From Methanomicrobiales archaeon (GTDB lineage Archaea; Halobacteriota; Methanomicrobia; Methanomicrobiales; JACTUA01), in assembly GCA_029907705.1 (NCBI GenBank), contig JARYLJ010000019.1, positions 1 through 39,814 of the forward strand: a stretch of 39,814 nucleotides of DNA. The letters run 5' to 3'. The notes below the pieces were generated by a model. It had not been told where the DNA came from, made no database searches, and saw nothing but the letters and a program-made list of their open reading frames with translations. Positions 5,207 through 25,987 of this stretch are shown in pieces. Made by a program: the position numbers and the translations under genes. Within the stretch, counting starts at the first letter, position 1; every line of letters begins with the position of its first letter.

Positions 5207-6454
5207 ATGTCAGGCCTTGCAGAGACGGATCCTGAGATTGCGGAGGTCATCGAGAAGGAGAGACTCCGTCAATTAAACGGGCTTGAACTGATCGCCTCGG
5301 AGAATCTGGTGAGCCATGCCGTACTGGAGGCGATGGGCTCCATCATGACGAATAAGTATGCCGAGGGGTACCCCGGAAAACGTTACTATGGTGGATGTGA
5401 ATTCTACGATATCGCTGAGAATCTGGCCAGAGACCGGATGAAAAAACTCTTCGGTGCGGAGCATGCGAATGTCCAGCCGCATTCCGGCACGCAGGCGAAC
5501 ATGGCCGTCTACTTCGCCGTTATGGAATGCGGCCAGGGAAAGATGATGAGTATGAGCCTTTCGCAGGGGGGGCATCTCTCCCATGGCTCTCCGGTCAGCT
5601 TCAGCGGGAAGATGTATCAGGTGACCCAGTATGGCGTCGATCTCGAGACGGAGATGATCGACTATGGCGTGGTCGAAGAGATAGCACGCAAGCTGAAACC
5701 GGATCTGATCGTGAGCGGTGCAAGCGCTTATCCGAGAGAGATCGATTTCAGGGCCTTTGCAGAGATCGCAGAAGAGGTCGATGCCTACAGCATGGCCGAT
5801 ATCGCGCACATTGCCGGTCTGTGCGCGACAGGCATGCACAACTCACCCGTCGGCCATATAGACTTTGTCACGACCACCACGCACAAGACCCTTCGCGGAC
5901 CCAGGGGCGGGGCGATCATGTGCAGCAGCGAGTATGCCGGCCTGGTGGACAAGGCGGTATTTCCGGGCATGCAGGGCGGACCCCTGATGAATACGATAGC
6001 CGCAAAGGCGGTGTGCCTGAAAGAGGCCCTGAAACCGTCCTTCAGGGATTACAACCGTCAGATCGTCCGAAATGCGCAGGCGCTGGCAGAGACACTTGCA
6101 GATGGAGATCTCCGCCTCGTCTCCGGAGGCACGGACAATCACCTCATGCTGATCGATCTCACCGACAGGGGGATCACGGGTCTCGAGGCGGAGATGGCGC
6201 TGGGGAAGGCAGGCATCACCGCCAACAAGAATACGATCCCGAGAGAGAAGCGGAGTCCGTTCGTCACCAGCGGGCTTCGCCTGGGGACTCCTGCGGTGAC
6301 CAGCCGGGGCATGAAGGAGGAGGAGATGCGAAGTATCGGTGAGTTCATCATTCGGGCCCTCAGGGATATCCATAACGAGGCGAACCTTCGCCGGATTCGG
6401 GAGGAGGTCGTCGAGCTGACCGGGAGGTTTTCGCTCTATCCGGATGAGCCATGA
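5207..6454 (+). CDS. glyA: Serine hydroxymethyltransferase
   Basis: This 415-residue PLP enzyme interconverts serine and glycine while moving a one-carbon unit to or from a tetrahydropterin. Family marks include [13 protein letters not shown] near the N-terminus, [15 protein letters not shown], and the PLP lysine K227 in [14 protein letters not shown]. The length matches the family. In archaea the carrier may be tetrahydromethanopterin/sarcinapterin or folate; the sequence does not decide, though the neighbouring folD suggests folate use. glyA heads a tight operon: its TGA overlaps the folD ATG by 4 nt, and folD overlaps the next gene the same way. It is divergent from the smc operon, with a likely short leader. 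Confidence 0.97.
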
Positions 6455-9567: not shown

Positions 9568-10554
9568 ATGCCTGCACCCAGGGAGATCACCTATTCCAGG
9601 AATGTCTTCATACCGCTGACGACCGTCTGCAGGAACCGATGCGGTTACTGTTCATTCAGGACACCGGCGCGTGAAGGGTGCCTGCTCTCCCCCGAACAGG
9701 TGACAGCCACGCTCATGGCAGGCGCCGCCGTGGGGTGCACAGAGGCGCTCTTCACTTTCGGGGAGATGCCTGAAATAGAGCCTGATTTTTCTTTTTTTCT
9801 TCAGTCAGCGGGATTTGGATCCATCCTCGAATATTGCTACGAGATGTGCAGGGAGAGCCTCCGCATCGGTATCCTACCACATACGAATGCGGGGATACTG
9901 ACGTCGGAGGAGATGGAGAGGCTCCGGAAAGTAAACGCGAGCATGGGGCTGATGCTCGAGACCACCGCCGAACTACCCGCACACCGGCACTCGCCCGGAA
10001 AAAGGCCCGAAGTGAGGATAAGGATGATTGAGGAGGCAGGGGAGCTGAGGATTCCATTCACCACCGGAATTCTCGTCGGTATAGGAGAGTGCAGGGAGGA
10101 CAGGGAGGAATCGCTCAGCGTCATCAGGGACCTACACCGGAGGTGGGGACATATCCAGGAGGTGATTGTTCAGAACTTCTCGCCGAAGGCGAACACTCCC
10201 ATGGAGGATGTGAAAGGCCCATCCATTGCGGAGATGTGCGATACGGTGCGACTCGCACGCGAGATACTGCCCTCCGATGTGTCAGTTCAAATCCCGCCCA
10301 ATCTGGTGGAGGTGAGATCCCTGATCGCATGCGGGGCGAACGACCTGGGGGGGATCTCGCCACTGACCGTGGATTATATAAATCCGGAACACCCGTGGCC
10401 GGAACTTGAGGCGCTGCGTGAAGCGCTGAAGGGATATCGCCTCGCCGAGAGGCTCTGCATCTATCCCAAATACATCGAGAAAGGCTGGTATCATCCGAAC
10501 ATCGAAGGACTTATCAGAAGGCTCGCGCAACAGATTCAGGAGAGGTCGGTTTGA
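9568..10554 (+). CDS. cofG: 7,8-didemethyl-8-hydroxy-5-deazariboflavin synthase subunit CofG
   Basis: This 328-residue radical SAM protein works with CofH to build Fo, the deazaflavin chromophore of F420, from tyrosine and a ribityl-diaminouracil. The cluster motif CRNRCGYC has cysteines 21, 25 and 28 in the CX3CX2C pattern. Other family marks are EALFTFGEMPE, LRIGILPHTNAGIL, PFTTGILVGIGE and the C-terminal NDLGGISPLTVDYINPEHPWP. cofH is not in the window. Its TGA overlaps the purC TTG start (TTGA), so F420 and purine genes share a transcript. No regulatory element other than the divergent promoter is evident. Confidence 0.97.
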   Translation: MPAPREITYSRNVFIPLTTVCRNRCGYCSFRTPAREGCLLSPEQVTATLMAGAAVGCTEALFTFGEMPEIEPDFSFFLQSAGFGSILEYCYEMCRESLRIGILPHTNAGILTSEEMERLRKVNASMGLMLETTAELPAHRHSPGKRPEVRIRMIEEAGELRIPFTTGILVGIGECREDREESLSVIRDLHRRWGHIQEVIVQNFSPKANTPMEDVKGPSIAEMCDTVRLAREILPSDVSVQIPPNLVEVRSLIACGANDLGGISPLTVDYINPEHPWPELEALREALKGYRLAERLCIYPKYIEKGWYHPNIEGLIRRLAQQIQERSV

Positions 10555-22035: not shown

Positions 22036-22380
22036 TCACTTCTTCGCCTCTTCAATGGCGAGCCGGTACATCCAGTCGACGAGCAGTGTGCACTCCTCCA
22101 CCACGCACTCGCGGTCGCATCCGATGCAGGGGGCAAGCTCCTCGCCGGCCAGCAGGAGCGAGGCATCGGCCACCTTCCGTTTGGCCTTCAGCAAGAAGGT
22201 CTTTACACCGTCCTTCTTCTGTTCGACCCGTTCTATAAGGCCTTTATCGAGGAGCTGCTTCACGATGCGGGAGCATTTGCGACTGTCGATGCCGAGCAGC
22301 TTCCAGAGATCGCTCTGCAGCACGCCTCCGGGAGAGGATTGTATCGCTTCCAGTGCCTCGTCGAGGTCTTTCATGGCCAT
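22036..22380 (-). CDS. Winged-helix protein with a four-cysteine C-terminus, TFE-beta/RPC39-like
   Basis: This 114-residue protein has an N-terminal winged helix (about 5-65), with LQSDLWKLLGIDSRKCSRIVKQL as the turn and recognition helix and LIERVEQKKDGVKTFLL as the wing. The C-terminal tail has four closely spaced cysteines, C85, C88, C92 and C97, in a CX2CX3CX4C pattern followed by a conserved-looking LVDWM. The winged helix plus a cysteine cluster ending C-x4-W resembles the archaeal TFE-beta/eukaryotic RPC39 family, in which the cysteines hold a [4Fe-4S] cluster. A general MarR/Lrp-like regulator with a zinc tail is the alternative. It starts one nucleotide after the LSm stop, so the two are co-expressed. 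Confidence 0.75.
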   Translation of the reverse strand: MAMKDLDEALEAIQSSPGGVLQSDLWKLLGIDSRKCSRIVKQLLDKGLIERVEQKKDGVKTFLLKAKRKVADASLLLAGEELAPCIGCDRECVVEECTLLVDWMYRLAIEEAKK

Positions 22381-23788: not shown

Positions 23789-24211
23789 AGAGATACAATA
23801 CATACTTCACGCGAGCGTATATATGCATAATGTTATGGGTAATACCTTTTTTTCCATTTGGACGAAAATGCGGGTGATTCCAGAAAAGATTCCAGATAGC
23901 GGCGACCGGCATTTCTCGATCCTCCATACATTTTATTCCAGGTACCATCGCCGAGCGGGGGATCGATGAGGAACCTGTGCCATAAAATAGAACATGTGCG
24001 GATGAAAACAACCGGTATATCGATGCCTTTGATCCGCAAAAAGCCCCTTGATCGGAAAAAACCATATCGAAGCCTGACCTGGTGTAATATTGGTTCTGAA
24101 AAGAACGCCCTGAACTTTCTATGGATCTCTCCTGCCATCTGAGGCCTCAGGTCCTGCCAGTAGTATTTTATAACGCGTTTCATTCATACGGATGTAACGG
24201 AGGTAATCTGT
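23789..24211. other. Divergent intergenic region between fbp and the rubredoxin-ThDP gene
   Basis: This AT-rich 423-nt region shows no supported gene. It contains the fbp TATA box (TGCATATATACGC on the minus strand, about 23815-23827). TATTTTATAAC at about 24165-24175 is the likely TATA box of the rightward gene, which also has a strong GGAGGT Shine-Dalgarno at 24200-24205. A 116-codon open frame on the minus strand spans the middle but looks non-coding. Confidence 0.45.
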
Positions 24212-25987
24212 ATGGCGATCTGGAGATGTTCGGTCTGCGGGTACCAGTACGACGAGGAGAAGGGAGAACCGGCCAGTGAAACACCAGCGGGAACGAGGTT
24301 CGAGGCACTCCCGGAGACCTGGAGGTGCCCGGTCTGCGGGGCGCCAAAGGCGGCCTTCGTCCGTGAAACGGGTGACGAGGTACACGAACAGGCAGAGACC
24401 ACCGTATCCGACATCATTGTGGAGGAGCTGGAGCGATGGGGTGTGGAGCTCGTATTCGGTCTTCCCGGCACCTCCTCCCTCGGCCTGGTGGATGCGGTGA
24501 GAAAGAGCGGCAGGATCAGGTATATCGTCGTGAGGCACGAGGCAAATGCATCGATGGCCGCTTCTGCGTACAACAAACTGACCGGGAAGATCGCCGCCTG
24601 CCTGACCATTGCAGGTCCCGGGGCGACGAATCTCGCCACAGGCCTGTATGACGCGCTGCAGGACGGTGCCTCGGTCCTTTCCCTGAACGGGCAGGTTCGC
24701 ATGCAATACACCGGCCCCTATGGCATTCAGGAGATCGATCAGGATGCCTTCTTCCGCGCAATCACCGTGTATAACAATACGATATACGACAGGGAGATGA
24801 CGGTGCTGCTCCTGAACAGGGCGTTGAAATACGCGACCCTCCGAAGGGGTCCTGCACAGCTCTCTGTGCCGAACAATATCCAGAAGCAGCGACTTGACAG
24901 GCGTTTCTGCCGATGCGAATCGATCCTTAAGGGATCACCCGTGCTGCCGGATCCGAAGGACCTGAAGAGGGCGGTCGAGGCGGTGGACGAATCCGAAAGG
25001 CCCGTCATCATCGCCGGGTGGGGTGCTATGGGGAACGGCGAGGCAATCCTCGCGCTCGCACGCAAGATCAGGGCACCCATCCTCACCACCTTTAGAGCAA
25101 AGGGGATCATTTCGGAGGAGAACGAGTGGGTGCTGGGCGTGCTGGGGACGGTGGGATCTCCGCAGGCGAGAACCCTTGCCGAGCGTTCAGACCTGCTGAT
25201 CACGCTGGGTGTGGGCTTCTCCCGATACACGAACATCCCAACCGACAGAAAGATCGTTCAGCTTGATGTGAATCCCCTCAAGCTGGGGCAGGGTTCGGAA
25301 TCGATCATACTGTGGGGCGACTGCCATCTGGTACTGCCGGTCCTCGTGGAGAAGAGCCGGACTAAACCCGATGGAGGGGAGGTGGAGGCAATAGCAGAAT
25401 TGAAACGCGAGTGGCAGGCGCAGCTGGAGGCAGAGGCAGATCCAGATGCGAAACCACTGCGCCCACCCTATATCATGAAGGTCCTCTCGGAGAAGATCCC
25501 CATGGACGCGGTCATCACCCTGGATGTCGGCGAGAACCAGTGGTGGTTCGGGCGCAACTTCAGGATGAGGGGGCAGCGGTTCACCATGTCGGGATATCTG
25601 GCAACGATGGGTTTTGGATTACCCGCCGCCCTCGCGGCAAAACTGGCATATCCGGGTAAGCAGGTATTCTGCATCACCGGGGACGGGGGGTTCTCGCAGG
25701 CGATGTCAGACTTCGTCACCGCGGTGAAATACAATCTCCCCATTCTCGTGGTGCTCCTCAACAACCACCAGCTGGGGATGATTCAGGTGGAACAGATGAT
25801 GGAGCACTATCCCAACTTCGGGACTGATCTCCTGAATCCTGACTTCGCCACATATGGGGAGATCTGCGGCGGTGTCGGCATCAAGGTAAGGGCGCCTGCG
25901 GATCTGGGTCCGGCGATCTCACAGGCGATGGATCTGGCTAGACCTGTCATCCTGGATATCGAAACAGATCCACGCAGATTTATCTGA
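24212..25987 (+). CDS. Rubredoxin-thiamine diphosphate enzyme fusion (acetolactate synthase/pyruvate oxidase family)
   Basis: This 591-residue protein joins a rubredoxin to a complete ThDP enzyme. The rubredoxin (1-50) has cysteines 6, 9, 39 and 42 (WRCSVCGYQYDE, TWRCPVCGAPKAAF) for one iron. From about 63 the ThDP enzyme begins: PYR domain with activator glutamate E110 in VVRHEANASMAA, a central domain around 235-370, and the PP domain with the ThDP motif GDGG at 490-493, closing with LNN. Homologues without rubredoxin act on pyruvate (acetolactate synthase, pyruvate oxidase). The rubredoxin suggests electron transfer from the decarboxylation intermediate, an oxidase/oxidoreductase rather than a synthase, but this is inference. 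Strong Shine-Dalgarno; alone in its operon. Confidence 0.9.
   Translation: MAIWRCSVCGYQYDEEKGEPASETPAGTRFEALPETWRCPVCGAPKAAFVRETGDEVHEQAETTVSDIIVEELERWGVELVFGLPGTSSLGLVDAVRKSGRIRYIVVRHEANASMAASAYNKLTGKIAACLTIAGPGATNLATGLYDALQDGASVLSLNGQVRMQYTGPYGIQEIDQDAFFRAITVYNNTIYDREMTVLLLNRALKYATLRRGPAQLSVPNNIQKQRLDRRFCRCESILKGSPVLPDPKDLKRAVEAVDESERPVIIAGWGAMGNGEAILALARKIRAPILTTFRAKGIISEENEWVLGVLGTVGSPQARTLAERSDLLITLGVGFSRYTNIPTDRKIVQLDVNPLKLGQGSESIILWGDCHLVLPVLVEKSRTKPDGGEVEAIAELKREWQAQLEAEADPDAKPLRPPYIMKVLSEKIPMDAVITLDVGENQWWFGRNFRMRGQRFTMSGYLATMGFGLPAALAAKLAYPGKQVFCITGDGGFSQAMSDFVTAVKYNLPILVVLLNNHQLGMIQVEQMMEHYPNFGTDLLNPDFATYGEICGGVGIKVRAPADLGPAISQAMDLARPVILDIETDPRRFI

Follow-up and report, generated by a model that had tools for sequence, protein, structure and literature searches.

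The rubredoxin-ThDP gene and its domains

The window, that is, the whole stretch of 39,814 nucleotides analysed here from a Methanomicrobiales assembly of 1.79 Mb, contains a plus-strand gene in which a rubredoxin (Rd) domain is fused to a ThDP enzyme. The frame and coordinates of the gene are exact; its features are listed below.

24166..24173, plus strand: TATA-like TTTTATAA, a putative archaeal promoter judged from the sequence, about 39 nt before the ATG
24199..24204, plus strand: Shine-Dalgarno GGAGGT, 7 nt before the ATG, by sequence reading
24212..25987, plus strand: Rd-ThDP fusion gene, 591 aa plus stop
24212..24361, plus strand: Rd domain, aa 1-50, with C6, C9, C39 and C42 (PF00301)
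within 24212..24361, plus strand: Rd aromatic core W4, Y11, Y13, F30, W37 and F49, plus A44, by conservation in 85 family Rd domains
24362..24400, plus strand: linker, aa 51-63, varying little in length across the Rd-ThDP family
24401..24745, plus strand: TPP_enzyme_N, aa 64-178, with activator E110 and Q173-E174 (Pfam and alignment)
24962..25339, plus strand: TPP_enzyme_M, aa 251-376, the FAD-binding domain in POX, PoxB and ALS; FAD binding predicted here
25523..25960, plus strand: TPP_enzyme_C, aa 438-583, with GDGG 490-493, N518, M523 and E527 (Pfam and alignment)
25964..25984, plus strand: short C-terminus TDPRRFI

Both flanking genes, which encode a type-V fructose bisphosphatase (FBPase) and a Cdc48-type ATPase, lie on the minus strand, so that the Rd-ThDP gene is a single-gene unit in the window. 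A preliminary description of this DNA had called it a one-gene operon with a very strong Shine-Dalgarno, and the sequence agrees on both points, the Shine-Dalgarno being a good one. A sigma-70 promoter and terminator scan gave no result; its model is unsuited to archaeal promoters.

The same description had reported an intact rubredoxin followed by a complete ThDP enzyme. In the Pfam search that it proposed, Rubredoxin (residues 4-49, 73.4 bits vs. a cut-off of 23) is followed by TPP_enzyme_N, TPP_enzyme_M and TPP_enzyme_C, and the residues it had named (the four Cys, E110 and the GDGG motif) are all where it placed them. The TPP_N-TPP_M-TPP_C order, the activator Glu and the GDG...N ThDP motif are those expected of pyruvate oxidases (POX) and pyruvate:quinone oxidoreductases (PQO). 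In the alignment, M523 corresponds to PoxB F465, and E527 to PoxB E469, a position held by Trp in acetolactate synthases (ALS).

Conservation across the 85 family Rd domains bears on the quality of the Rd part. F30 and F49 are found in all 85, W37 in 81 and Y13 in 84. As the pattern that collected these domains already demanded the four Cys, their constancy is not independent evidence; it is because of the four aromatic residues that we call the domain, on its sequence, canonical and not degenerate. It looks functional, with Fe binding and one-electron redox chemistry predicted. Residue 44 is Ala in 63 of the 85 domains. The V44A form of a Clostridium Rd has been described as a high-potential variant, and prokaryotic Rd potentials range from -100 to +50 mV (PMC10130062); by analogy, the family domains may lie at the high end of that range.

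Affiliation of the ThDP part

A maximum-likelihood tree of 62 rows included 40 family members and only six named POX references. The family is monophyletic in it (support 100/98) and, relative to those six references, sister to POX/PoxB/YdaP-type sequences; the joint clade has a support of 100/99, with all ALS outside. A phylogeny of the kind called for in the preliminary description thus groups the family with POX/PoxB and apart from ALS, in this sample as a sister lineage not nested among them.

Diagnostic residues mostly follow the same division. At the E527 position (PoxB 469), Glu is present in 40/40 family members and 6/6 POX references, vs. Trp in six of the seven ALS. Q350, found in 38 of the 40 members as in POX, is His in ALS; the family has GDGG where ALS has GDGS, and the ALS motif RQWQ is replaced by VEQ. 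The Phe at PoxB F465, a residue tied to electron transfer from ThDP to FAD (PMC7245740), is replaced by Met in 36 of the 40 and by Asn in four. Met is the usual ALS residue at this position and also occurs in one Bacillaceae protein annotated as a pyruvate oxidase. The top NCBIfam score is that of pyruvate oxidase NF006377 (460, below the equivalog cut-off of 742), and TIGR02720 also falls below its cut-off (346 vs. 638).

The C-terminus differs from that of the known oxidases. After residue 584 the window protein has 7 residues and family members have 6-20, typically TDPxRF, compared with 39-56 after the equivalent residue in POX, PoxB and the Bacillaceae enzyme. In PoxB this segment, which contains the lipid-activation helix, serves in lipid activation and in transfer to quinone; truncating a related enzyme has an effect partly like that of activation (PMC7245740). 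An AlphaFold model (mean pLDDT 86.6, pTM 0.83, 38 input sequences) was searched against the PDB; the best matches were LpPOX and truncated PoxB (3eya), with ALS structures close behind. Because POX is barely separated from ALS in this search, it was given little weight.

A separate IlvB gene, followed by one for an ACT-type small subunit, is present on another contig of the genome (C41), and no ALS small subunit lies beside the Rd-ThDP gene. ALS identity was rejected on three grounds: Glu in place of Trp throughout the family, the position outside the ALS clade, and the genome's own IlvB and small subunit. As judged from its sequence, the ThDP part is a POX-type enzyme and not an acetolactate synthase.

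Three sets of known enzymes come closest. Pyruvate:quinone oxidoreductases (E. coli PoxB, S. aureus CidC, C. glutamicum PQO) share the three-domain ThDP/FAD architecture, the activator Glu, the GDG...N motif and the Glu at PoxB 469; PoxB is in the tree, in the sister clade, whereas CidC and PQO are outside it, PQO being covered by the fold search. Relative to PoxB, to which it is about 29% identical, the window protein adds an N-terminal Rd, is without the C-terminal segment and has Met for F465. Lactobacillales POX and Bacillaceae YdaP-type enzymes (NF006377/PRK08611), whose acceptor is O2 or a quinone, gave the best NCBIfam score and share the SxYLxTMG and FIxxEQ/MIxxEQ motifs with the Rd-ThDP protein; they differ in C-terminal extensions of 39-47 residues. 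A plasmid-borne Metabacillus pyruvate oxidase, at 39%, has the highest identity among the named plasmid-borne proteins sampled. Acetohydroxyacid synthases (IlvB/IlvI, AlsS) share the superfamily fold and domain order and score close in the fold search, but differ in the residues and clade given above and in having a small subunit, which the window locus is without.

Distribution, rubredoxin arrangement and neighbourhoods

The family gene occurs in 73 of the 120 Methanomicrobiales genomes sampled (60 of 98 among high-quality genomes). More distant members were found elsewhere in the phylum in a phylum-wide sample, including Methanohalophilus mahii, whose homologue, at 954,881-956,629 of the chromosome, also has a fused Rd. 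Identity to the window protein is 60-71% for the closest relatives and about 41-53% for distant families. The preliminary description had treated the locus as unusual, which is not supported, as the fusion is found widely across Methanomicrobiales. It had also held that its redox idea would fall if the fusion proved common and already assigned an ALS role: common it is, but we found no such role assigned, and the sequence speaks against it.

Altogether 96 family loci with a ThDP ORF were found, window included, three of them truncated at the 5' end. Among the 93 with readable 5' ends, a single Rd is fused in 39 and a double Rd in 12, and a separate same-strand Rd ORF lies just upstream in a further 22; the Methanoculleus enzyme is of such a split type. 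The same fusion is thus present in 50 other loci, which excludes chance or misassembly. In the remaining 20 readable loci an Rd is neither fused nor encoded just upstream, so that for these it is dispensable or supplied in trans. Two loci illustrate unfused layouts: in L044 the two frames overlap by ~20 nt, with the Rd stop at 6198 and the ThDP start at 6179, and L119 has the order ThDP-DUF1122-Rd-Rd on a single strand. Six Thermoplasmata-type contigs (L030, L031, L033, L034, L037, L041) carry a ThDP enzyme ~60% identical to the window protein, with no Rd fused or just upstream; horizontal transfer is possible for these enzymes.

Between Cys42 and the ThDP domain (residue 64) the spacing is 18-22 residues, being 21-22 in 46 of the 51 fused loci; the 21-22 residue spacing extends to Methanosarcinaceae members of ~42% identity. 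The two deepest branches of the family tree (f8/f30 vs. the rest) each contain fused forms, which suggests that the fusion is old and was later split or lost, repeated gain also being possible.

Malic enzyme, which makes pyruvate, adjoins the ThDP gene in six loci, co-directionally in L008, L011 and L016 and divergently in L025, L026 and L069. Together with the POX-like active-site residues, these recurrent neighbours support the earlier label of a pyruvate-type enzyme. In L008 and L011, fumarate-reductase-type genes also lie downstream of the Rd-ThDP gene. A cluster seen in L008, L011 and L074 comprises Rd-Rd-ThDP, a fumarate-reductase-type flavoprotein and Fe-S subunit, and a fumarase/aspartase-type lyase, with malic enzyme in L008 and L011 and the lyase checked by Pfam in L074 only.

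The other recurrent neighbour is a protein with the glutamate-synthase FMN domain (PF01645), in eight loci and in convergent, divergent and co-directional layouts. It is fused to Rd (Rd-GltB) in the representatives checked, and an unfused version adjoins in L107 (f7). In G050 and G108, Rd-GltB and the ThDP gene share one contig, a few hundred bases apart. The preliminary description had electrons passing on to an O2- or peroxide-reducing partner; no such gene recurs beside the Rd-ThDP gene among the loci examined, whereas the Rd-fused glutamate-synthase-domain gene does.

Several other Rd genes were located in the window genome (G000). Rd-GltB, an Rd fused to a glutamate synthase FMN domain, is at G000:C46:475-1956 on the minus strand (L172), a different contig from that of the Rd-ThDP gene. 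At G000:C7:62483-64000, also on the minus strand (L174), a gene for a flavodiiron-like (FprA-type) protein, assigned by sequence reading and not by family search, comes after two tandem small Rd genes of the same strand; this cluster of two Rds and the flavodiiron-like protein also includes a rubrerythrin. Contig G000:C9 (L173) has two genes, at 1658-2059 and 10052-10459, for tandem double-Rd proteins of ~133-135 aa. A gene for another ThDP-binding protein, with a GVPGYPVN motif, lies at G000:C29 near 22066-22263 (L128), directly upstream of a homocitrate/isopropylmalate-synthase-like gene, and may encode a 2-oxo acid enzyme.

A candidate pyruvate:rubredoxin oxidoreductase

The reading that we favour, with some confidence and on sequence evidence, is a soluble member of the pyruvate-oxidase superfamily that acts as a pyruvate:rubredoxin oxidoreductase. 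Once activated by E110, ThDP would decarboxylate pyruvate to hydroxyethyl-ThDP; electrons would then move to FAD in the middle domain and from there singly to the fused FeCys4 Rd, which would replace a membrane quinone or O2 as the acceptor. Acetate is the likely product by analogy with PoxB and CidC. Rd would thereby take the electron-exit role in a family without the lipid-activation segment of PoxB, and the fused carrier probably lets methanogen cells pass pyruvate electrons to Rd. More cautiously, we lean towards regarding the family as a new acceptor class in the superfamily, characterized by Rd as the electron exit, by the absent lipid-activation segment and by the supply of reduced Rd in methanogens.

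The earlier idea of a redox enzyme in place of an ALS gains indirect support from the phylogeny, the diagnostic residues, the missing C-terminal segment and the presence of Rd either fused or separate upstream. It is better than the ALS reading, but its O2/peroxide end is a guess. Candidate acceptors for reduced Rd include rubrerythrin, the Rd-fused glutamate-synthase-domain protein and the flavodiiron-like protein whose gene neighbours two free Rds; the window genome encodes all three, and any of them might receive the electrons. O2/peroxide defence and glutamate synthesis are one option each within the oxidoreductase reading. Counting against a pyruvate:rubredoxin oxidoreductase are the Met or Asn at PoxB F465, the NCBIfam pyruvate-oxidase scores well below cut-off, the 20 loci with no Rd fused or just upstream, and a fold search that barely parts POX from ALS.

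The same POX-type chemistry could instead serve biosynthesis, with Rd delivering electrons to Rd-GltB and not to O2 or peroxide reducers, although we think this unlikely. The neighbourhoods described above and the Rd-GltB of the window genome speak for it, and across 120 genomes both genes occur in 29, the ThDP gene only in 44, Rd-GltB only in 7 and neither in 40 (p=0.004, uncorrected for phylogeny). On the other side, 44 of the 73 ThDP-bearing genomes have no Rd-GltB match at threshold, and the two genes are on separate contigs in the window genome. Since the co-occurrence is significant only if shared ancestry is ignored, we keep this role as a rival.

Similarly improbable, in our estimate, is a non-oxidative carboligase or decarboxylase that forms acetolactate, acetoin or acetaldehyde, with Rd as a redox sensor or structural metal site. 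Such an enzyme would fit the ALS-like Met that replaces PoxB F465 and the family members wholly without Rd, and ALS enzymes retain FAD without net redox use. It is at odds with the uniform Glu for the ALS Trp, the place of the family outside the ALS clade, the separate IlvB and small subunit with none near the Rd-ThDP gene, and an Rd that is canonical and not degenerate.

That the enzyme stands in for ComDE as the sulfopyruvate decarboxylase of coenzyme M synthesis is very improbable, and this was rejected as a general role because the ComE and ThDP enzyme distributions are independent (both in 47 of 120 genomes, ThDP only in 26, ComE only in 30, neither in 17; Fisher p=1.0); the non-oxidative chemistry would also need no Rd. 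What had favoured it is that ComE (TIGR03846, E<=1e-15) is unmatched in 11/11 genomes of the window's family f1 (G000 and 10 others), several of which are incomplete. It is likewise unmatched in several near-complete f5 genomes (G005, G011, G029, G041), and coenzyme M synthesis in the ComE-less f1 and f5 genomes may use another decarboxylase.

POX-type enzymes themselves are well known, and so are fusions of Rd to other redox enzymes. In the flavodiiron-Rd-oxidoreductase fusion of Trichomonas, the Rd is likewise an internal one-electron relay, there from NADH to an O2-reducing domain (PMC9364112); the partner of the Rd in the window protein is instead a ThDP enzyme that would oxidise a 2-oxo acid. 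In the open-licence literature searched, we found no published description of an Rd-ThDP fusion or of Rd as an acceptor in the POX superfamily, and a survey of archaeal fusions does not mention rubredoxin (PMC11237513). The described acceptors in the superfamily are O2 and quinones (PMC7245740). A pyruvate:rubredoxin oxidoreductase would extend this range to an iron protein. It would also imply that a strict anaerobe oxidises pyruvate at the high potential of an Rd, which looks wasteful and calls for an explanation.

Rubredoxins, rubrerythrins and flavodiiron-type proteins are all present in methanogens, and where their Rd obtains its electrons is poorly defined; for oxygen-defence proteins, the M. 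mahii genome paper suggested only thioredoxin reductases (PMC3017947). If our favoured reading is correct, a pyruvate-driven Rd reductase in roughly 60% of the sampled Methanomicrobiales genomes would provide a concrete donor.
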